IMG/VR virus record: IMGVR_UViG_3300034375_007958
Span: 1 to 64,000 of that record
Strand: one strand, 5' to 3'
Source: a virus
DNA length: 64,000 bases
Shown: piece by piece, positions 3,156 to 36,613 of the stretch
Numbering within the stretch: position 1 is the stretch's first letter
Layout: each line of letters starts with the position of its first letter
The notes under the pieces: model-generated
Seen by the model: only the letters and a program-made list of their open reading frames with translations
Told to the model about the DNA's origin: nothing
Database searches by the model: none
Made by a program: the position numbers and the translations under genes

Positions 3156-3806
3156 TTAATGTCGTCCACTTGCTAAAACTATTTGACAGATATGTTCTAA
3201 ACGTTCAATGTGTTCAAAACATCTCCAGGGCGTAGTATCTACTGCTACTACGCCGTGTCCTTTAATACCAATAATATCATACTTTACCAAACCAGTTATT
3301 GGACAAACATCAAGTCTATCAATTGTATAGTCTGCCAACTGTTGACTGATCGGCGGCACATCCGGTACATTAGGAGCAACCGATGTATATCTACTTAGTT
3401 CAGGAAAGTCTTTGACCAAATCTTGTAGTTCAATTCCGGCATGCATAGCAGCCACGGTGTAAGTGGGATGAAAGTGCATGACCACTCTTACTTCGTCGCT
3501 GTGTATTTCACGCTGCAAACCAAAGTGTAAAGGAATTTCTCCGCTTGGCCGTAAGTTACGGCTGATGTCAGTATACTCTAATTCACGCCAATTGTATTCA
3601 AAAGGTAATGGCCTGTTTTCTACTGGTTGTTTAAGTATTTCAATTTTTTTAAATTGATCAGGCTGTAGTGTTTGCTTGCGTACTCCACTGGGTGTAATGT
3701 AAAAATGATCTCTGTCGTGATGCCTAATGCTGACATTACCGTCACGACTGGTAATCCAGCCGCGCTGATATGCATGATTCATTGTATCACAGATTGTTTC
3801 TAACAT
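3156..3806 (-). CDS. class II aldolase/adducin family protein
   Basis: The 216-aa protein has the class II aldolase fold signature: SRDGNVSIR near residue 20, TPSGVRK near 38, catalytic-type E90 in RPSGEIPLH, zinc ligands H111 and H113 in VVMHFHPTYTVA, and a third histidine in IKGHGVVAV. The family includes L-fuculose- and L-rhamnulose-phosphate aldolases and methylthioribulose-1-phosphate dehydratase. All zinc ligands appear present. Its ATG overlaps the BoxB stop (TAATG), so it is translationally coupled to BoxB. The substrate cannot be assigned. Confidence 0.85.
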   Translation of the reverse strand: MLETICDTMNHAYQRGWITSRDGNVSIRHHDRDHFYITPSGVRKQTLQPDQFKKIEILKQPVENRPLPFEYNWRELEYTDISRNLRPSGEIPLHFGLQREIHSDEVRVVMHFHPTYTVAAMHAGIELQDLVKDFPELSRYTSVAPNVPDVPPISQQLADYTIDRLDVCPITGLVKYDIIGIKGHGVVAVDTTPWRCFEHIERLEHICQIVLASGRH

Positions 3807-5221
3807 TAATTAAACCTTACGTAATCAAAATCCATTGGTTGTTTGTTGATACCCACAGAAGGTGGTGCAATGTAGTTGGCATACTGTCCTTGTTCAGTAA
3901 CACGGCCCATTAGACTTTGTACAAATGCACGATCTTCTGGTGTGGGTAACCACTGGCTCTGACTTTGCTGCCATTGTTCCTGTGATACAACACGCCCTTC
4001 GGGACTAATTGTTAAGCCTGCTAGTGGTCCGATGTTACGATTAAATGCTTTATGTGGAACTGTAAGTTCAAAGTCGATGCCTGCCTTGTTTAAAATACGA
4101 TTCCAACGTCCAACGCCACTGGCACTGTCTTTGATGTAGTCATCACGTAGCACTTCATTAAGTGCATTCAGCATGGGTACACTGCGCTCTGTTAAGTCTG
4201 CACTTAAAACGCTGTACTCACTGTCTTTTAGTACATGGTCGTCATCGTGCTTTTCTTCATCATAACGTCCTTTTAGTCCTGTTGAGTAGAATGTAGCAGC
4301 ATTACTGCTTTCGTCTGCACCAAATAAGTCCACAGTCTTACTGAAGTGGAAGTTTAAGTAACGTTGGATTGTTGGCAAATCAATTACACCAGCACTACGT
4401 AAACGTTGCGGATCATCTGTGCCAAGTTCTTTCATAACTTGTGCAGTGCGTTGTAGGATCCTTGCTACGCCGCTCTCGCCTACAAACATATGATGTGCTT
4501 CTTCTGTAAGCATGAATTGTGTAGTACGTGCTAAGGGATCAAATGCACTTTCACTCAATGCTTTTAACTGAAACTTGCCGTCCCTGTCTGTAAAGTAAGT
4601 AAACATAAAGAAACTGAGCCAGTCTGGAGTCTTTTCGTTAAATGCTTCCAAGATACGTGGATTGTCTGCGCTACCACTGTTACGTGCCAGTAAGTCTTCT
4701 GCTTCTTCTCTACCATCACGCCCAAAGTATTTGTGTAACAAATATACCATGGCCCACAGGTGACGGCCTTCTTCTACGTTGATCTGAAATAAGTTACGTA
4801 GGTCATACAAACTGGGAGCAGTCAAACCCAAGTGCCGTTGTTGCTCCACTGACGCAGGTTCTGTGTCGCCCTGTGTCACAATAATACGTCTTAGGTTTGC
4901 ACGGTATTCACCTGGCACACTGTCCCAGGCCGCTTCACCTTTATGATCACCAAAATGAATCTTGCGACCTTCTTTAGCAGGGTTTAGGAAAATACCCCAA
5001 CGATAGTCTGGCATCTTAACATGGTCAAATTGTGCCCATCCCTGTGCATCTACACTGACAGCAGTACGCAGATATACGTCATAGTTGGTACTGCCTTCTG
5101 GTCCCATGTCCTGCCACCAGTTTAAAAAGTTTGGTTGCCATCCTTCAAGAGCACGTTGTAGTGCTCTGTCTTCACTTAAATTAACATTGTTAGGTATACG
5201 CTCTGAGTAATTTATTGTCAT
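3806..5221 (-). CDS. boxB: benzoyl-CoA 2,3-epoxidase oxygenase subunit BoxB
   Basis: The 471-aa protein matches BoxB along its whole length (family about 470-475 aa): IPNNVNLSEDRALQRAL at the N-terminus, QGDTEPASVEQQRHLGLTAP near 118, VEEGRHLWAMVYLLHKYFG near 149 and FMLTEEAHHMFVGESG near 237. The class I diiron ligands are all present: E121, E151, H154, D212, E241 and H244. BoxB with its reductase BoxA epoxidises benzoyl-CoA, the committed step of aerobic benzoate degradation through CoA thioesters. BoxA and BoxC are not in the window, so host partners would be needed. It is 9 nt downstream of isocitrate lyase and overlaps the aldolase. Such a gene is unexpected on a phage. Confidence 0.95.
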   Translation of the reverse strand: MTINYSERIPNNVNLSEDRALQRALEGWQPNFLNWWQDMGPEGSTNYDVYLRTAVSVDAQGWAQFDHVKMPDYRWGIFLNPAKEGRKIHFGDHKGEAAWDSVPGEYRANLRRIIVTQGDTEPASVEQQRHLGLTAPSLYDLRNLFQINVEEGRHLWAMVYLLHKYFGRDGREEAEDLLARNSGSADNPRILEAFNEKTPDWLSFFMFTYFTDRDGKFQLKALSESAFDPLARTTQFMLTEEAHHMFVGESGVARILQRTAQVMKELGTDDPQRLRSAGVIDLPTIQRYLNFHFSKTVDLFGADESSNAATFYSTGLKGRYDEEKHDDDHVLKDSEYSVLSADLTERSVPMLNALNEVLRDDYIKDSASGVGRWNRILNKAGIDFELTVPHKAFNRNIGPLAGLTISPEGRVVSQEQWQQSQSQWLPTPEDRAFVQSLMGRVTEQGQYANYIAPPSVGINKQPMDFDYVRFN

Positions 5222-5230
5222 TGTAAATAC

Positions 5231-6439
5231 TTAATGAAATTGATCTGCTTCTGTTGAAGATTTGTTAGCAACGGTACTGGTAGCACCAACTGCTTCACTG
5301 ATAACGTCAAAATAACTAACGCCAACTTCGCGTTGATGTTTTACAGTGGTAAAGCCTCTGTCTACTGCCGCAAACTCACGTTGTTGCATTTCTGCATAGC
5401 CTGCCATCCCACGTTGTTTATATGCTTCAGCAAGTTCAAATGTAGCAAGGTTAACACTGTGGAATCCTGCCAGTGTAATAAACTGAAACTTGAATCCTAG
5501 TTCAGCAATTTCACGTTGGAAAGTTTCGCATTCGTCTTCGCTTAGGAACTTACGCCAATTGAAACTAGGGCTACAGTTATAAGCAAGCAACTGGTCAGGA
5601 TACTCGGCATGTATGGCATCGGCAAATTTCTTAGCCTGTGCCACGTCAGGTGTGCTAGTTTCGAACCATAAGAGATCAGCGTAAGGGGCATAAGCAAGAC
5701 CTCTGCTAATACAAGCATCGATACCATTTTTAAATTTGTAAAAACCTTCTTCAGTGCGCTCATCAATAATAAAATCCTTGTCTAGTGGGTCGTGATTGCT
5801 GGTAATCAGTGTCGCAGCTTCTGCATCTGTGCGTGCCATAATAACTGTGCTAACACCTGCTACGTCTGCTGCCAGCCGTGCAGCATTAAGATTACGAATT
5901 GCCTGTCCTGTGGGAATTAGTACTTTGCCACCTAAATGTCCGCATTTCTTTTCTGAACTTAGTTGGTCTTCAAAGTGTACGCCGGCAGCGCCTGCTTCAA
6001 TCATGGCCATCATAAGTTCATAGACATTAAGTGCACCGCCAAACCCTGCTTCTGCATCTGCTACAATGGGCAGGAAGTAGTCTGTGGTCACGTTGCCTTC
6101 TACGTGTTCAATTTGATCCGCACGACGGAAAGCATTGTTGATACCTTTTACCACATTGGGCACTGAGTTTACTGGATATAGACTTTGATCCGGATAAGTT
6201 TGCAGTGCAGTATTATTTGCTGCCGCTACTTGCCAGCCTGACAGGTAAATTGCTTTAAGTCCTGCCTTGGCATGTTGTACTGCCTGTTGCCCATTGTAAG
6301 CACCTAGTGTGTTAATATATGGTTCTGTGGCTAACAAGTGGCGTAGTTTATTTGCACCCAGTCTAGCCAGGGTATGGTCAATGTGTACACTGCCTCTGAG
6401 TTTGTCTACAGTTTCCTGTGAGTAATTGCGTTTTTTCAT
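5231..6439 (-). CDS. aceA: isocitrate lyase
   Basis: The 402-aa protein is isocitrate lyase, cleaving isocitrate to glyoxylate and succinate. Visible landmarks are [10 protein letters not shown] near 67, the metal-site [10 protein letters not shown] near 126, the active-site KKCGHLGGK loop (164-172, catalytic Cys166), [17 protein letters not shown] and a C-terminus containing STEADQFH, like the family's flexible lid. It is about 30 aa shorter than typical bacterial enzymes (about 430) through trimming of the N-terminus and internal loops, with no catalytic element missing. Malate synthase is not seen. Its start overlaps the methyltransferase stop, and BoxB follows 9 nt later, so it is one operon. 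Confidence 0.96.
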
Positions 6440-7050
6440 TATTTGATTCCTATTTTCATAAACCTTTGATAACTAACTTCCGGATCTCGTAGTTTACGCT
6501 CGCCCAAGTAAAACACATCACTCAACGGAAATTGATTATTAAATTCTTCTACGGTGTCTGTTACTACGTCCACTGATTGTACATTATTTCTAGCCTGCAG
6601 AGCAACCGTTGATCCCGCAGGAATACGGTCTAACCAACCCTCATTTGCCATTTCATTACAACTGGTATTAATTACTAATATTGGCTGCTGGTCAGAATAG
6701 GTAATTTTGTTTGCGTCCTGAATTATGGTATCTAGTTTGTCTGTAATTGGTTCTAATAGTTCTTTGCTAATTTGCATCCAATCTTTGTTAATGTCTACTA
6801 ACACTATTCGATCAAATTCAACACCTTTTTGCTGCAAAAATATAGCCATATTACCAAACCAACTGCCCAGTACATATACTGTTTTGTATTTTTCGACACG
6901 AGTTTTAGTCATTAAAGCACGCACCTTACGTGCTAGCCATAATTTGCTTGTTACTAAGTCAGGTGTAAAACTCCCGCCTAGTGTACTGGGACTGGCTTCA
7001 TAAAAGTCTTTTGTTTGCATTCTTACTTGAGACTTGCTCTTAACATCCAA
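6439..7050 (-). CDS. class I SAM-dependent methyltransferase-like protein
   Basis: The 203-aa protein has a Rossmann methyltransferase layout: a glycine-containing motif I ([15 protein letters not shown] near 59), the acidic end of strand 2 ([10 protein letters not shown] near 82) and a motif IV region ([13 protein letters not shown] near 123). The target is unknown. It overlaps the end of the Dps gene and the start of isocitrate lyase, sitting between stress and metabolic genes. Motif I is degenerate, so a non-catalytic or divergent member is possible. Confidence 0.6.
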
Positions 7051-7457
7051 CTGTGTTTACGATGTGCATCCATACGTTCAGCAAGGAAGTTACTCAAACC
7101 GTGTTCACCTTCACGTTCTGCTAGGTCGTAAACCATCTTGAATACTTTGACGGACTTATCACTGTCACTTAACAGTTCTTCTACCATACCCATTACTGGT
7201 GGTACGCCAGTTTCGTCGTCGATCTGTGTTAGCATACTAAGGCGTGTGTAACTACCAGGAGTGTAACTGCCCAGTTTGCGAATGTTTTCAGCAAATGGAT
7301 CAATGCTTTCGTAGACTTCTTCGTAAATAGTTTCAAACAGTTTGTGATACTCTTGAAAATCTGGACCTTCTACGTTCCAATGAAAATTGTGTGCTTTTAA
7401 ATAAAAACTAAACTCTGTGCTAAATGCAATTTTCATTGCTTTGATTAAATCTTCCAT
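7023..7457 (-). CDS. dps: Dps-family ferritin (DNA-protecting, ferroxidase)
   Basis: The 144-aa protein has the Dps four-helix-bundle signature FHWNVEGPDFQEYHKLFE. The inter-subunit ferroxidase ligands are all present with Dps spacing: H26, H38, E42, D53 and E57. Dps dodecamers oxidise Fe(II) with peroxide, store iron and shield DNA. It lacks a long basic N-terminal tail, so direct DNA binding is less certain. It is 1 nt from the HiPIP-like gene upstream and overlaps the methyltransferase downstream. With the SOD and IscA-like genes further on, it suggests an oxidative-stress and iron theme. Confidence 0.9.
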   Translation of the reverse strand: MEDLIKAMKIAFSTEFSFYLKAHNFHWNVEGPDFQEYHKLFETIYEEVYESIDPFAENIRKLGSYTPGSYTRLSMLTQIDDETGVPPVMGMVEELLSDSDKSVKVFKMVYDLAEREGEHGLSNFLAERMDAHRKHSWMLRASLK

Positions 7458-7458
7458 G

Positions 7459-7890
7459 CTAGTCTGCCTTCTTGCCTTTGTCTTTTTCTGTTATGGGGCC
7501 ATTTGCTATCCAAGCAGTGCAACTTCTATCCCCGGCGCATTTAAAATGCAAGAAGTTACAGTATCCTAAGTCTGCTAAGTTAATACTGGCGTTTGCATCT
7601 ACAGCCTTTTCGTCACCCTTAATACCATTGGCAATGCAGTCACGCATACTGTCGCTGACATCAAATGCACCACAGTTAGCACACAGCATTGTCTTTGCAG
7701 TTTTTTCGTCTATCTTCCACTGCTTGGCACTATCTTTCCAATATTTTCCTGGCGCTGCTGGATTAGCAGGACCGTAATGATAACTGTCAATTGCTGTCTG
7801 TCGATTTTTAAGGTTGACGTCAATGTCGTAGGTTGCCACAGGGCAGTTACGCTCTGCTGCTTCTACCAGTCTAATCAGATTTCTTAACAT
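7459..7890 (-). CDS. HiPIP-like cysteine protein with capsid-targeting-like N-terminus
   Basis: The 143-aa protein has six cysteines. C70-x2-C73, then C111-x12-C124 followed by TAW resembles the CxxC...C...C-xx-W pattern of high-potential iron-sulfur proteins, although the spacing between the second and third cysteines is longer than usual. The first residues, MLRNLIRLVE|AAER, fit the T4 prohead-protease site (L/I)xE|A after a ten-residue leader. I infer a possible Fe-S protein packaged in the head. It overlaps the upstream gene by 20 nt. Without the HiPIP reading it would be an unknown conserved phage protein. Confidence 0.5.
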   Translation of the reverse strand: MLRNLIRLVEAAERNCPVATYDIDVNLKNRQTAIDSYHYGPANPAAPGKYWKDSAKQWKIDEKTAKTMLCANCGAFDVSDSMRDCIANGIKGDEKAVDANASINLADLGYCNFLHFKCAGDRSCTAWIANGPITEKDKGKKAD

Positions 7891-25976: not shown

Positions 25977-27053
25977 TTACTTACTTCCTGGTACAGCGCC
26001 TTCTACACCCTTGACGAAAAAGTTAATACTGTCTCGCCAGGCCTGATCGCTTACTTTGCCTGCGGCAAGTCTGGTTTTACCAGTATTGTCAACTACAGGA
26101 CCAGTAAATGGATCAAACGTTCCTGCTTTGATACCTGCCTTAACTTTATTTACACGGGCAACAGCGTCTGCTGGAACTTCTTTGCTGATTTTGATAAGGT
26201 CATTCAAGCCTTCTTTAACACCCCATACTGTACGCTTGGTTTTCCAAGTGCCAGCCTTGAGTTCTTCAATTGCCTGAATATAGTATGGACCCCAGTTGGC
26301 AATGGCGGAGCCCAGGTGCGCCTTGCCAGCAAACTTACTCATGTCACTGTCCCAACCAAATGCATACTTGCCGTTCTTATCAGCAGTCTGTAGCACAGCT
26401 GTACTGTCTGTGTTTTGCAATAGTACGTCAGCACCTGCATTAATTAGACTCTGGGCGGCATCTGTTTCCTTGGGAGGATCAAACCAAGTATTAACCCAAA
26501 CAACTTTTACTTTGACGTTAGGATTTACTGATTGTGCTCCTAAGGTATATGCATTGATATTGCGTAATACTTCTGGAATAGGAAAACTACCAACAAAACC
26601 TAAGGTATTTGTTTTGGTCATTGTGCCTGCAATAATACCTGCCATGTAGGTGTCGTGATAAAAACTGGCATCATATAGACGCATATTTTTTGAAGTCTTG
26701 TAACCTGTGGCATGCTCAAATTTTACTTTGGGGAATTCCTTTGCTACTTTTAGCATTGGGTCCATAAAACCAAACGATGTAGCAAAGATGATATCGTTAC
26801 CTTGACGAGCAAGATCACGAATCACACGCTCAGCGTCGGCACCCTCAGGCACGTTTTCTACATACGTGGTTTGTACAGCATCGCCAAATCTGGCTACTAC
26901 TGCCTTACGGCCTTGGTCATGTGCAAATGTCCAACCTGCATCTCCTACAGGTCCAACATATACCCATGCTGCTTTGATTGGATCTTTGGCCTGTGTTGGA
27001 ATAACAGCCAAGCCGATTACGCTAGCCACTAGTGCTACAAATAGTTTTTTCAT
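25977..27053 (-). CDS. BMP/PnrA-family periplasmic solute-binding protein
   Basis: The 358-aa protein has a Sec signal peptide (MKKLFVALVASVIGLAVIPT, cleavage after TQA near 22) with no lipobox. The rest is BMP family: AAWVYVGPVGDAGWTFAHDQ, TSFGFMDPMLKVAKEFP, LRNINAYTLGAQSVNP and FGWDSDM. Members bind purine nucleosides or related ligands for ABC import. It has a strong Shine-Dalgarno (AAAGGAG) and no permease beside it, so it would load the host transporter. It sits between the spanin genes and the holin/endolysin genes, an odd position for an uptake gene. Confidence 0.93.
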   Translation of the reverse strand: MKKLFVALVASVIGLAVIPTQAKDPIKAAWVYVGPVGDAGWTFAHDQGRKAVVARFGDAVQTTYVENVPEGADAERVIRDLARQGNDIIFATSFGFMDPMLKVAKEFPKVKFEHATGYKTSKNMRLYDASFYHDTYMAGIIAGTMTKTNTLGFVGSFPIPEVLRNINAYTLGAQSVNPNVKVKVVWVNTWFDPPKETDAAQSLINAGADVLLQNTDSTAVLQTADKNGKYAFGWDSDMSKFAGKAHLGSAIANWGPYYIQAIEELKAGTWKTKRTVWGVKEGLNDLIKISKEVPADAVARVNKVKAGIKAGTFDPFTGPVVDNTGKTRLAAGKVSDQAWRDSINFFVKGVEGAVPGSK

Positions 27054-32232: not shown

Positions 32233-32827
32233 ATTGTATTATATTATTTTTAATATGAGTTTCTATAAAATCACTTGCTACTTCGAAGTTTTCACCGAGA
32301 TAAATCTGTTCCAGGCATTTCTTTTTTTGATTGTAATATGTCTCAAATATTCCATTAGGTAAAATTGGCAAAAGTTCTTGAGAATATTTTAAGCATAAAT
32401 CTACATTGCCAAATTGGTGAAGGGTCCAATTGCTTAAAAATAAAAAATTTCTTATAGTGGTAACAGATTCATCTATTTTTTCTTTAGATTCGGTAATTTT
32501 ATTTTTGTAACTTACAATATCTCTTGCAAAAATTCTAAAGTAAGGATAGTTTATTTTTTTGATATTTTTTAAGTCAGAGAATGTTCTGTAGTAACAACAA
32601 GAATTGTCAATTAATTCTTTTGAATAGTTGTGTGATTGATCTATTCTAATAGGAAATAAATGCATCTTAGAAGAAATAAGTAAACCCAATGAAATAGTAT
32701 GTTCTAAATCATTGCACAAAAACATAATTTTATCTAATATAGGAGAATACAGTGCATAAAGTTCAGAATCTGAATAACCCCAATCAAAATATTTGTGCCC
32801 CGGTTCAACTTTGTTCATTGATTTCAA
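32201..32827 (-). CDS. A/T-rich hypothetical protein
   Basis: The 208-aa protein is unrecognised. It is helical, with Lys/Ile/Asn-rich composition and tetratricopeptide-like stretches (CLKYSQELLPILPNGIFETY; KKKCLEQIYLGENFEVASDF). It overlaps the ATP-pyrophosphatase gene by 32 nt and the oxygenase gene by 23 nt, implying joint expression. Confidence 0.6.
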   Translation of the reverse strand: MKSMNKVEPGHKYFDWGYSDSELYALYSPILDKIMFLCNDLEHTISLGLLISSKMHLFPIRIDQSHNYSKELIDNSCCYYRTFSDLKNIKKINYPYFRIFARDIVSYKNKITESKEKIDESVTTIRNFLFLSNWTLHQFGNVDLCLKYSQELLPILPNGIFETYYNQKKKCLEQIYLGENFEVASDFIETHIKNNIIQYGPNNIFSLE

Positions 32828-33488
32828 CTTGATGATTATACTGTAATTTAGCGAGAAAAAAATCAGTCTCTTTGGTTTTTACTCCGGTAACTTGTAGTGT
32901 AACTCTGGGCGTATGCCCGGCATTGGCAGTGCTGTGAGGCACGTTTAACCAATCAAATGTGGTAACATCACCCGCACGCCATCCTGCGTACTGATAGTTT
33001 CCGTAGTTCCAAAAATGGCCCATTTGCCAATCAGTCAACTGTACAAAGTATCTAACAACTTGTGCGGGATCTTCAGGCATCCACTTTTCTAACTTGTCCA
33101 AGTGCAAGTTCCAAACTTGTCCGGGGCGTTGTACATGCACTCTCGTCATTGGTAAGTCTAAAGCAAACTGGTCTGCTATACGTTGATATATAGCACTTAC
33201 AGAATAGTTCATGTCTGTTACAACATAGTCTTTGCTCATGCCGTACGATTCTAAGTCGTACTCTTCTTGATCGTATTCTTCACTTGCTCTGACCAGTGTG
33301 TCGTTGGGTCTGCCACGAGTACGCCAAGTAACTGGGTATGCATCTGCAATAGCCTGCTCCAACTCTGCAGTCCATGTGGGTTTGATTCTTCCAAGTTTAA
33401 CTACAGTATCGTATTTTGGATCATTGATCATAGTGTTAAAATGATACTGACTTCTTTGCTTAGTAATTTCCCAATTACTCTTAGACAT
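32805..33488 (-). CDS. 2-oxoglutarate/Fe(II)-oxygenase-like protein
   Basis: The 227-aa protein has an iron-facial-triad pattern of the 2OG-Fe(II) dioxygenase fold: HLDKLEKW (HxD) near 128, a distal H in VPHSTANAGH and R in HTPRVTLQVTG near 193-200 for 2OG binding. Aspartyl/asparaginyl hydroxylase-like members look similar. Many marine phages carry such enzymes; the substrate is unknown. It starts after a GAGG Shine-Dalgarno and overlaps tctA by 8 nt. Confidence 0.75.
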   Translation of the reverse strand: MSKSNWEITKQRSQYHFNTMINDPKYDTVVKLGRIKPTWTAELEQAIADAYPVTWRTRGRPNDTLVRASEEYDQEEYDLESYGMSKDYVVTDMNYSVSAIYQRIADQFALDLPMTRVHVQRPGQVWNLHLDKLEKWMPEDPAQVVRYFVQLTDWQMGHFWNYGNYQYAGWRAGDVTTFDWLNVPHSTANAGHTPRVTLQVTGVKTKETDFFLAKLQYNHQVEINEQS

Positions 33489-34923
33489 AATTTAATCCTC
33501 GGTTTTTATTTCTTATGCTTCTATACACAATCCATGCAGCCACTGCCACAGTCAACACAAACAAAGGTCGTGTGACCAATTGGTCCCATGTGTACAGTTG
33601 ATTGGTCTGTAAGATGTAACCTTCTAAACGTTCGGCTACCACATAAGTTACTAACAATGCCGGTCTGCTGATATCATAATATTTACACGCAATACCTAAC
33701 GTACCACATAATGTCAGCATGGCCATGTCCTGCCAACCCTGTGTGTATTGAAAGTTTGCCCACACAATAACTGCTAAAATAATAGTAGCATATATCCAAT
33801 AGGGTATTTCCAATATTTTTACAATGTAACGCATGAACACTACGCTGACTATGCCTACTACAATACTGCCGCCCACAAATCCTGCAGCAAGGCTTAGTAC
33901 AAAGTCTGTGTCGTAAATTAACATGGGTGTACCCAGTTCAATGCCAAAGTAGATACACAGTGCCATCATGATAGCAGCAAAAGGCGCGGCTGGTATCCCA
34001 AACAACACTGTGGGCAACATACTTGACACTTTTTGAGCACTGTTAGCACCTTCGCATCCTAATAAGCCTAATGGATTGCCTTCACCAAACTTTTTATCTG
34101 GATGCCGCGCCACTGTGGAACCATAGGCTAAAAAGTCTCCTATTGCACCACCTACACCTGGCAGTAAGCCTGTGACAAATCCTATTACACCACCACGCAT
34201 CATGTCACGTCTATATTCTATACAGTCACGCACACCTTGACGTAATTGATGCCAGTACTGGTCAAATACTGGAGGACGCTTATGTCTATTTTTCAACCCC
34301 CATAGTAGTTCTGGAATGCCAAACAAGCCAGATATCAGTGCAATCATTTGTACACCTGCACCTAAGTACTCCCAGCCAAAAGTAAAACGGTAAGCACCTG
34401 TGGCAGGATCCTGTCCTATAACACCAACGAATAATCCAAGTGCAATTGCAATTAAACTTTTAAAGGGATTTTTGCTGGCAACAAATCCTACACAGGCAAG
34501 ACTCATTAACATAAAGCCTGCAAACTCAGGCATGCCAAACCATAGAATAATTTGTCCGTAGTATGGCAGCAACAAAAATGCCAGTGTGCCGTATAACACA
34601 CCGTTGACAGTACTGTCGAAGATAGCAATGCCCATTGCACGACCTGCTTGGCCCTGTTGTGTCATAGGGTATCCATCTATAACACAGGCTGCAGTGGTTG
34701 ACGCCCCGGGTATGCCTGTCAGTATGCTGGTATAACTGTCCGCAGCCGCGCAGGCAGCAATAATGCTGGTAAGAAACACGATACCAGCATAAGGGTCACT
34801 AAGGAAATAAGGAGCGAAACCAAACACAGTGATTAACGCAGTAGTTACTCCTGCAATTGGTATCACTCCTATCAGCAGACCGTATAAACTGCCTGCTAAA
34901 ATCCAAAGTAAGTAAGCGATCAC
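33481..34923 (-). CDS. tctA: tripartite tricarboxylate transporter large permease TctA
   Basis: The 480-aa integral membrane protein (many hydrophobic helices) has the TctA signatures GLLIGVIPIAGVTTALI, AADSYTSILTGIPGASTTAA, DGYPMTQQGQAGRA and GLLPGVGGAIGDFLAYG. TctA forms the ion-coupled channel of TTT transporters, which import citrate and other carboxylates with a periplasmic TctC and small subunit TctB. The length is close to normal (about 500). It overlaps tctC by 4 nt. TctB is not found, so a host TctB or a two-component system would be needed. Confidence 0.95.
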   Translation of the reverse strand: MIAYLLWILAGSLYGLLIGVIPIAGVTTALITVFGFAPYFLSDPYAGIVFLTSIIAACAAADSYTSILTGIPGASTTAACVIDGYPMTQQGQAGRAMGIAIFDSTVNGVLYGTLAFLLLPYYGQIILWFGMPEFAGFMLMSLACVGFVASKNPFKSLIAIALGLFVGVIGQDPATGAYRFTFGWEYLGAGVQMIALISGLFGIPELLWGLKNRHKRPPVFDQYWHQLRQGVRDCIEYRRDMMRGGVIGFVTGLLPGVGGAIGDFLAYGSTVARHPDKKFGEGNPLGLLGCEGANSAQKVSSMLPTVLFGIPAAPFAAIMMALCIYFGIELGTPMLIYDTDFVLSLAAGFVGGSIVVGIVSVVFMRYIVKILEIPYWIYATIILAVIVWANFQYTQGWQDMAMLTLCGTLGIACKYYDISRPALLVTYVVAERLEGYILQTNQLYTWDQLVTRPLFVLTVAVAAWIVYRSIRNKNRGLNYV

Positions 34924-35975
34924 TTGACTAATTCAGGTTTGTAAACACTGGGGAAACCGTAGGCTTCTTGATTCCAACGTACTGCACCTTTAAGTGCTGG
35001 CTCTGTGATTAACTTGCTGAGTTCACCAATAACTGCATTACCATCGTCACCCACAATCCAACCATAACGTCCTGTACGTTGTTCAATGGCACGAACTGCT
35101 TCGGGATCTGCTAACATCTTACGTAGTGCCGCACGAAGTTTTTCTGTATTGGGATTACCCTTATTAACCCATAGTGATTTTTGAATGACATCACGCCAGT
35201 TACGAGTCAGACGATATGCTTCATACAATTCACCACTAGGTGCTTGACCCCATAATTTCTGATATACATCTTCGAACTGTGTATTTGGAAAGTTTGCGTC
35301 AGCAACTTGACGTTTATTGGCTAAGTCGTAAGTGCCATGTGTAAACCATACTTCGTTATTTTTAGCCTTGTCAGTCCAGAACTTAATCCAAGCAGGAGGA
35401 CTTTCACGAGTAATGTTTAGTTCGCCACGTAAAAATCCCAAACGCTTTTCTGCACCTTTAACACCGTTGACCCATACTACACGTTTTTTCCAGCAGTCAA
35501 GATAAGCAGAAATACTACCATCTTTTTGTGGTCCACAAACCATCATGGCCATGGCCATACCGTCGGGTTCTAGTCCAGAACCGCCTGCTACTTTAAATGT
35601 GTCCTTTTTGGGATCTGTGCCCACACGTTTTCCTACCACAATATCCAAGTTCATCATGCCAATGGCATCGTACTGTCTGTAATCGTAGTCTACCCGATCC
35701 AACAAAAAACTAACACCGTTGCCGCCGTGGGCCACCATAATAGTTTTGTCGTCGAATCTTAGTTTGTTGTGAAATTCATTGTATCCAGGAATATCACGTG
35801 CTCCGGGAATATGTCTTACAACAACAGGTTCGTCTGTGTATTTGCTGAGATTCTGTGCTATAATGCCAGCCCAAACAGCAGTACCCAATCCGGGACCTTG
35901 TGGCACAATTAAAGTATAGTCTGCATGGGCTTGTGTGCCAATCACCAATGCTAACATTGCTAGTAGTCGCTTCAT
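34920..35975 (-). CDS. tctC: TctC-like periplasmic solute-binding protein
   Basis: The 351-aa protein has a Sec signal (MKRLLAMLALVIGTQAHA, cleavage near 18) and a Bug/TctC-type fold: YTLIVPQGPGLGTAVWAGII, VRHIPGARDIPGYNEF, FKVAGGSGLEPDGM. It would capture a carboxylate and dock on TctA, whose gene it overlaps by 4 nt. Bug-type receptors are especially numerous in Burkholderiales. The ligand cannot be deduced. Confidence 0.88.
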   Translation of the reverse strand: MKRLLAMLALVIGTQAHADYTLIVPQGPGLGTAVWAGIIAQNLSKYTDEPVVVRHIPGARDIPGYNEFHNKLRFDDKTIMVAHGGNGVSFLLDRVDYDYRQYDAIGMMNLDIVVGKRVGTDPKKDTFKVAGGSGLEPDGMAMAMMVCGPQKDGSISAYLDCWKKRVVWVNGVKGAEKRLGFLRGELNITRESPPAWIKFWTDKAKNNEVWFTHGTYDLANKRQVADANFPNTQFEDVYQKLWGQAPSGELYEAYRLTRNWRDVIQKSLWVNKGNPNTEKLRAALRKMLADPEAVRAIEQRTGRYGWIVGDDGNAVIGELSKLITEPALKGAVRWNQEAYGFPSVYKPELVK

Positions 35976-36613
35976 TTTATTTCCTTTGTAAAAGATAGAA
36001 TTTTAACTTTAATATCGTCTTGAGAATAATCCTGTCTGTATTCTTCTGGAGGCTGCTCGATGTGCAAGTTTAAACAAGCAGTTCTATTATCGTAAGAAAA
36101 AAATCCCGGCCGGTCTTCCATTGCTTTAATAATATCCTGATTTTGAGCACGTATTTGTGTTGTCATGTGTTTTAGGTTTTTGTAATAACTGCTATAGTCT
36201 GGATAGGTAATTGCAAATTCTCCACACATCGTCCACCAGCCTAAACAACTGTCGTTGGGCCTGTGTACAAGTACAATGGGACAGTCGGGCCAAGTACGTT
36301 GAATAAAATCGATATGATGTGCAAAAACATGACTTTTAATAATACGTACACCCTTGCCCGAGAAAGGACGGTCAAACTCTAGTTCTAAGTCCTCTCGACT
36401 GTACTGGTCCATTTTATCGAAAAAATCACCAAATTCCATGCCTGGATCAAAATAAGCACCCAAGTGCATTAACTGCATAGTCCCTGAAGCATCGTGATGG
36501 TATGTACGAGCCTCAGTATAATCTGTGCGGTCAATGCTGGCACTATAGTAGATGTTTTTAACTACACTACTCCATTTTGATCCTGGTGCACCTGCCACAA
36601 AAATATATTTCAT
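35972..36613 (-). CDS. sulfotransferase-like P-loop protein
   Basis: The 213-aa protein begins MKYIFVAGAPGSKWSSVVKN, a PAPS-binding-type loop (APGSKWSS), and has a typical 3'-phosphate region (CPIVLVHRPNDSCLGWW). It overlaps tctC by 4 nt. Its ATG lies six bases after AATAAA with TTGACT 17 bp upstream and no Shine-Dalgarno, so a leaderless start is likely. The acceptor is unknown. Confidence 0.7.
   Translation of the reverse strand: MKYIFVAGAPGSKWSSVVKNIYYSASIDRTDYTEARTYHHDASGTMQLMHLGAYFDPGMEFGDFFDKMDQYSREDLELEFDRPFSGKGVRIIKSHVFAHHIDFIQRTWPDCPIVLVHRPNDSCLGWWTMCGEFAITYPDYSSYYKNLKHMTTQIRAQNQDIIKAMEDRPGFFSYDNRTACLNLHIEQPPEEYRQDYSQDDIKVKILSFTKEIK

Follow-up and report, generated by a model that had tools for sequence, protein, structure and literature searches.

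A large bacterial virus from IMG/VR carries two adjoining genes, tctC and tctA (together, the dyad), of which both are intact members of their transporter families and are kept together, under constraint, in many phages that have no detectable TctB. Because dozens of related viruses retain the pair intact, and none of those searched has a TctB, the dyad looks like a working, slimmed-down importer. With slightly better than even confidence, we infer that it is a reduced, TctB-free, TTT-type carboxylate importer brought by phages: that it transports, that it does so independently of TctB and that it benefits the phage. We file it as TTT-derived, outside the canonical TTT, since searches for TctB and for the TM1 hallmark of TctA found neither.

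Gene run, families and folds

The window, the whole 64,000-nt stretch that was analysed, comprises bases 1–64000 of a 167,330-bp virus record (IMGVR_UViG_3300034375_007958). The record includes a phage primase, a DnaB-like helicase, a ribonucleotide reductase and virion genes, and Synechococcus phages are the nearest relatives for one of its virion proteins; it is classed as 'linear', so a few genes are possibly missing at its ends. The dyad lies in a minus-strand run, from 36613 down to 30272, in which successive genes overlap by 4 to 32 nt (Table 1). A sequence-only reading of the window had called tctC and tctA complete and overlapping by 4 nt, and this was borne out, with both reading frames open. 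Frameshifts, which that reading had raised as a concern, are unlikely because the proteins align over their full lengths with homologues of similar size.

Table 1. Coordinates of the dyad, its neighbours and other features named in the text.
Feature	Sequence	Coordinates	Strand	Basis or remark
Weakly sulfotransferase-like gene, 213 aa	window	35972..36613	-	Directly upstream of tctC, 4-nt overlap
tctC-like, periplasmic solute-binding protein, 351 aa	window	34920..35975	-	ORF, ATG start; TctC/Bug fold
tctA-like, integral-membrane carrier, 480 aa	window	33481..34923	-	ORF, GTG start; PF01970
Putative 2-oxoglutarate/Fe(II) oxygenase, 227 aa	window	32805..33488	-	Residue pattern; 8-nt overlap with tctA
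BoxB next to isocitrate lyase	window	3806-6439		BoxB TIGR03225, 875 bits vs cut-off 499; isocitrate lyase NF011645, 680 vs cut-off 562
PnrA-like (Bmp) ABC substrate-binding protein	window	25977-27053		PF02608, E 7e-55
Gram-negative porin	window	58664-59560		PF13609, E 4.8e-16
Vut_1, putative vitamin uptake transporter	L041 (same phage)	2043-2675 (record 86043-86675)		PF02592
61-codon tctA remnant	L008 (also L009-L011, L038)	5785-5970		Directly upstream of tctC
Mini-TctB locus	L093 (also L095-L099)	3928-6431		PF07331
Mini-TctB locus	L094 (also L095-L099)	4789-7551		PF07331

In a Pfam search the phage TctA matched PF01970 along almost the entire model (E 3.7e-94, profile 1–422 of 423); a PDB fold search with TctA gave no significant match. 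The protein consists of the TctA domain only, with no C-terminal TctB tail, and phage TctA lengths are 478–506 aa. TctC begins with an N-terminal secretion signal (MKRLLAMLALVIGTQAHA), in which A16 and A18, the A-x-A at the signal end, are invariant among TctC homologues. The TctC model PF03401, searched at E up to 1, matched none of 26 proteins (the phage TctC and 25 homologues), and against PDB sequences the phage TctC gave nothing meaningful. An AlphaFold2 model of TctC (mean pLDDT 85.4) was used in a structure search, and the top 11 hits were all TctC/Bug entries (Z 18.2–20.2), with other binding proteins as the next fold, at Z 12.8. Because this fold ranks first, and because the phage TctC profile also finds bacterial proteins, among them one that PF03401 recognises (E 1.1e-37), we identify the phage receptor, as modelled, as a divergent TctC. 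A lipase match of TctC (PF13472, E 0.005) fell below the cut-off and was taken to be coincidental.

The phage encodes further uptake-type proteins. These include a PnrA-like ABC substrate-binding protein, a Gram-negative porin that is possibly an outer-membrane uptake partner, and the Vut_1 transporter.

Absence of TctB and changes in TctA

The sequence-only reading had seen no TctB near the pair and had proposed a genome-wide search for a four-helix one. Neither a profile search nor a transmembrane scan revealed such a protein: PF07331 (TctB) had no match in the full 167,330-bp record, and a whole-record transmembrane and hydropathy scan found no free four-TM protein of TctB type, the only four-TM protein near TctB size being Vut_1. 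No GPGFFP-type small membrane ORF (mini-TctB) was found in the record, nor any small membrane protein common to all dyad loci. PF07331 was likewise absent from another 23 virus records with the dyad, of which 13 exceed 100 kb; some dyad contigs are fragments. In G020 and G021, two phages from a different lineage, the identical search did find TctB, so it is able to detect short phage TctBs. Since the TctB family is poorly conserved, the absence is strong and not absolute; a very divergent TctB elsewhere could be missed.

The phages of that other lineage carry a second phage TTT of different ancestry, composed of a TctC-type gene, a mini-TctB of 57–63 aa and a normal TctA. The mini-TctB has two TM segments and a GPGFFP or GTGFFP motif, and matches PF07331 (E 3.3e-5) over the first third only. 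In the TctA tree these phages fall elsewhere than the dyad. To our knowledge, no TctB as small as this has been reported.

A motif ending in P-G-x-G is highly conserved in TM1 and TM7 of TctA (PMC5812351). All 40 bacterial rows, among which a few loci are represented twice, have the TM1 glycine, as do both mini-TctB phages. This glycine is missing from all 15 dyad rows, being replaced by I, M or V in 14 of 14 phage rows (P-I instead of P-G in the window phage) and by A in a dyad from a MAG. The TM7 P-G is kept in 15 of 15 dyad rows. Dyad TctA also retains the IPG, DGYP and EGAN segments; after the E of the E-S-A-N segment, each of the 15 dyad rows has G, and bacteria have S, A, T or V. TctB loss and TM1 glycine loss thus co-occur in the dyad clade. 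As this glycine is part of a highly conserved motif, the dyad could have lost ordinary transport.

Distribution and bacterial relatives

The dyad recurs in IMG/VR. A scan with TctC recovered 39 viral contigs at 62–78% identity, and a scan with the TctA alignment recovered 55 loci, among them nine additional dyad-type contigs, giving 48 contigs with phage-type TctC and/or TctA; several dyad contigs are near-copies, so there are fewer independent phages than contigs. Wherever both genes were readable they were neighbours (45 of 45 contigs). The main dyad group has the order C-A; the order A-C is found in L050, L051, L074, L081, L086, L089 and L091, which are more distant, and in the marine MAG contig L046. 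In informative close pairs, the dN of each gene did not exceed about one tenth of its dS, indicating strong purifying selection and arguing against decay; the close pair L007/L039 had too few changes and was excluded from this reading. Among isolated phages (tblastn, 50,697 phage records) there was no TctC, and only seven TctA matches at 24–28% identity. Dyad phages have little virion sequence in common.

Several loci bear on the history of the pair. Contig L046 (MAG Marine bacterium B5-7, BQJD01000039.1; 33.8 kb), of bacterial or integrated viral origin, holds a TctB-less tctA-tctC pair, beside which lies a homologue of the weakly sulfotransferase-like phage gene. The phage gene itself matches PF13469 at E 0.0011, below cut-off; in other phages, as on this contig, homologues of it are found repeatedly close to the dyad. 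On five contigs an internally deleted tctA remnant, which still has the TM1 P-G, stands directly upstream of tctC (Table 1). The remnant suggests that tctC once had a tctA copy on its other flank, and it may record a switch in gene order.

Bacterial relatives were sought in sampled Pseudomonadota genomes. The MAG dyad aside, 14 sampled proteobacterial genomes encode phage-related TctC-type proteins (E 1e-8 or better), and 12 of their neighbourhoods were read. In nine, a fusion-length TctA (649–686 aa) adjoins that TctC; in L143 the TctA is cut by the contig end, and none is found in L144 or in L146 (a 3.6-kb contig). The fusion TctA has 167–206 extra residues with three to five membrane segments, in which Pfam does not call TctB; profile–profile comparison matched the extension to TctB with E 2.2e-6 over 154 columns, against 0.1 or worse for reversed and unrelated controls. 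The same group emerged independently of TctC when 299 genomes were ranked by the phage TctA profile: after the MAG dyad, the best matches were seven fusion-length TctA (658–697 aa, 215–239 bits), whereas normal-length bacterial TctA scored 181 bits and below. In the tree, dyad TctA and fusion TctA form a joint branch with support of 99/97, to be read with long-branch caution given the long dyad stem.

These sequence comparisons indicate that dyad TctA and the bacterial TctA-TctB fusion group share ancestry. The fused TctB tail was probably lost in the phage line before the pair spread; shedding of TctB is the most likely course because the nearest bacterial relatives are fused and all 23 other dyad records lack TctB. 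The fusion loci scanned adjoin PrpF and isocitrate/isopropylmalate dehydrogenase-type genes, and these neighbours hint, by analogy, at tricarboxylate-like substrates.

Proposed function, alternatives and known systems

We propose that the phage TctC, once secreted, would capture a small organic acid (a carboxylate) in the host periplasm, and that TctA in the host inner membrane would carry the acid inward, with an ion gradient as the presumed driving force. The pair would descend from a bacterial two-gene system of a large TctC and a TctA-TctB fusion; with the TctB part lost in the phage line, TctA would act without it, and during infection the dyad would add to the organic acid available in the cell. 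Against this, no bacterial TTT demonstrated to function in the absence of TctB is mentioned in the papers searched. A bolder form of this proposal, to which we give somewhat less than an even chance, holds that loss of TctB from the fusion, compensated by replacement of the TM1 glycine, yielded a self-sufficient two-component importer that then spread and is maintained as standard cargo of many aquatic phages.

The sequence-only reading had described a phage carboxylate transporter that borrows TctB from its host. Its TctA, its TctC-type receptor, the lack of a phage TctB and probable carboxylate transport all stand, and host borrowing is no longer the favoured part. If the phage did supply receptor and channel and use host-made TctB, the complex would be tripartite after infection. 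Characterised bacterial TTT do have TctB or, rarely, a TctA-TctB fusion (PMC5812351), and TctB occurs in many bacteria, with three in the MAG genome G001. We nevertheless consider borrowing unlikely, and less favoured than TctB-free action: dyad phages share little virion sequence and so may have varied hosts, whose TctB would be poorly conserved; a free, distant TctB would have to fill an interface that in the nearest bacterial TctA is occupied by a fused one; and another phage lineage encodes its own mini-TctB. Quite unlikely, in our estimate, is that nothing is imported, with TctC sensing or signalling in the periplasm or both proteins altering the host envelope, for example to block superinfection. 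Bacteria have large numbers of orphan TctC, and sensing may be part of what these do (PMC5994714); a porin and a PnrA-like binding protein are further products of the phage, and the TM1 motif of TctA is altered. Yet a full-length TctA is kept with every readable TctC under equal constraint, and its TM7 motif and other conserved segments persist.

The adjoining gene offers a candidate substrate. Of 46 assessable loci, 33 have a member of its 227-aa family directly downstream of the dyad, and in seven more a single gene intervenes. The family has no Pfam, PHROG or PDB sequence match, and H129, D131, H185 and R195 are invariant in 20 homologues (HxD...H...R, the triad plus a 2-oxoglutarate-binding Arg), a residue pattern that alone suggests a putative 2-oxoglutarate/Fe(II) oxygenase. 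The imported acid might then be 2-oxoglutarate or a similar dicarboxylate feeding that enzyme, and the four putative metabolic genes listed in a study of SUP05 viruses do include both tctA and a 2OG-FeII oxygenase (PMC4164917). We regard this as very improbable: the assignment is motif-based, the same genome has two more members of the family at places with no transporter, the adjacency may reflect an accessory-gene hot spot, and the neighbours of the bacterial relatives hint at other substrates.

Isocitrate lyase, which the sequence-only reading had linked to the transporter, is real in the window phage, and by family models it and the neighbouring BoxB are full length. As a partner of the transporter it was rejected: the gene was absent from 17 other dyad records and two mini-TctB records searched, leaving the window phage alone among 20 (18 dyad and two mini-TctB), and it therefore does not explain the transporter.

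In the literature searched, which largely omits subscription papers and preprints, we found no account of the dyad, of its lack of TctB or of its descent from a fusion, and viral organic-acid import appeared only as a passing mention of a 'tctA domain'. Should the proposal hold, organic-acid import would be a widespread viral addition to host metabolism. The conserved TctC-TctA pair and the mini-TctB phages are also simple systems in which to test the role of TctB, the function of which a review calls unknown while relaying a proposal that TctA is the core (PMC5812351), and any link between TctB and the TM1 glycine.

The viral tctA noted in SUP05 single-cell viral contigs resembles the dyad in its marine phage context and in being noted with a 2OG-FeII oxygenase (PMC4164917). 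It was described as a 'protein domain hit only' with unknown role (PMC4164917, repeated in PMC6359870), with no TctC, dyad or TctB question raised. In archaea, TctA often stands alone (arCOG04469, PMC5898192); like the dyad these proteins have no TctB and are proposed to work alone, but they are chromosomal and mostly also lack TctC. With TctCBA (TC 2.A.80) the dyad shares a TctA-family carrier, a secreted receptor of TctC/Bug fold and adjacent, co-directional genes. Unlike TctCBA, it is phage-borne and has no TctB, its receptor is missed by PF03401, and its TctA has P-I/M/V/A for P-G in TM1 and EGAN for the ESAN-type segment. The bacterial systems of TctC and a TctA-TctB fusion (L118, L136-L142 and L145) come nearest, with the closest TctA by profile score, the closest non-dyad TctC found and the same two-gene arrangement as in phages; their TctA is only about 29% identical to that of the phage and, unlike the phage protein, continues at its end into a multi-TM extension resembling TctB.
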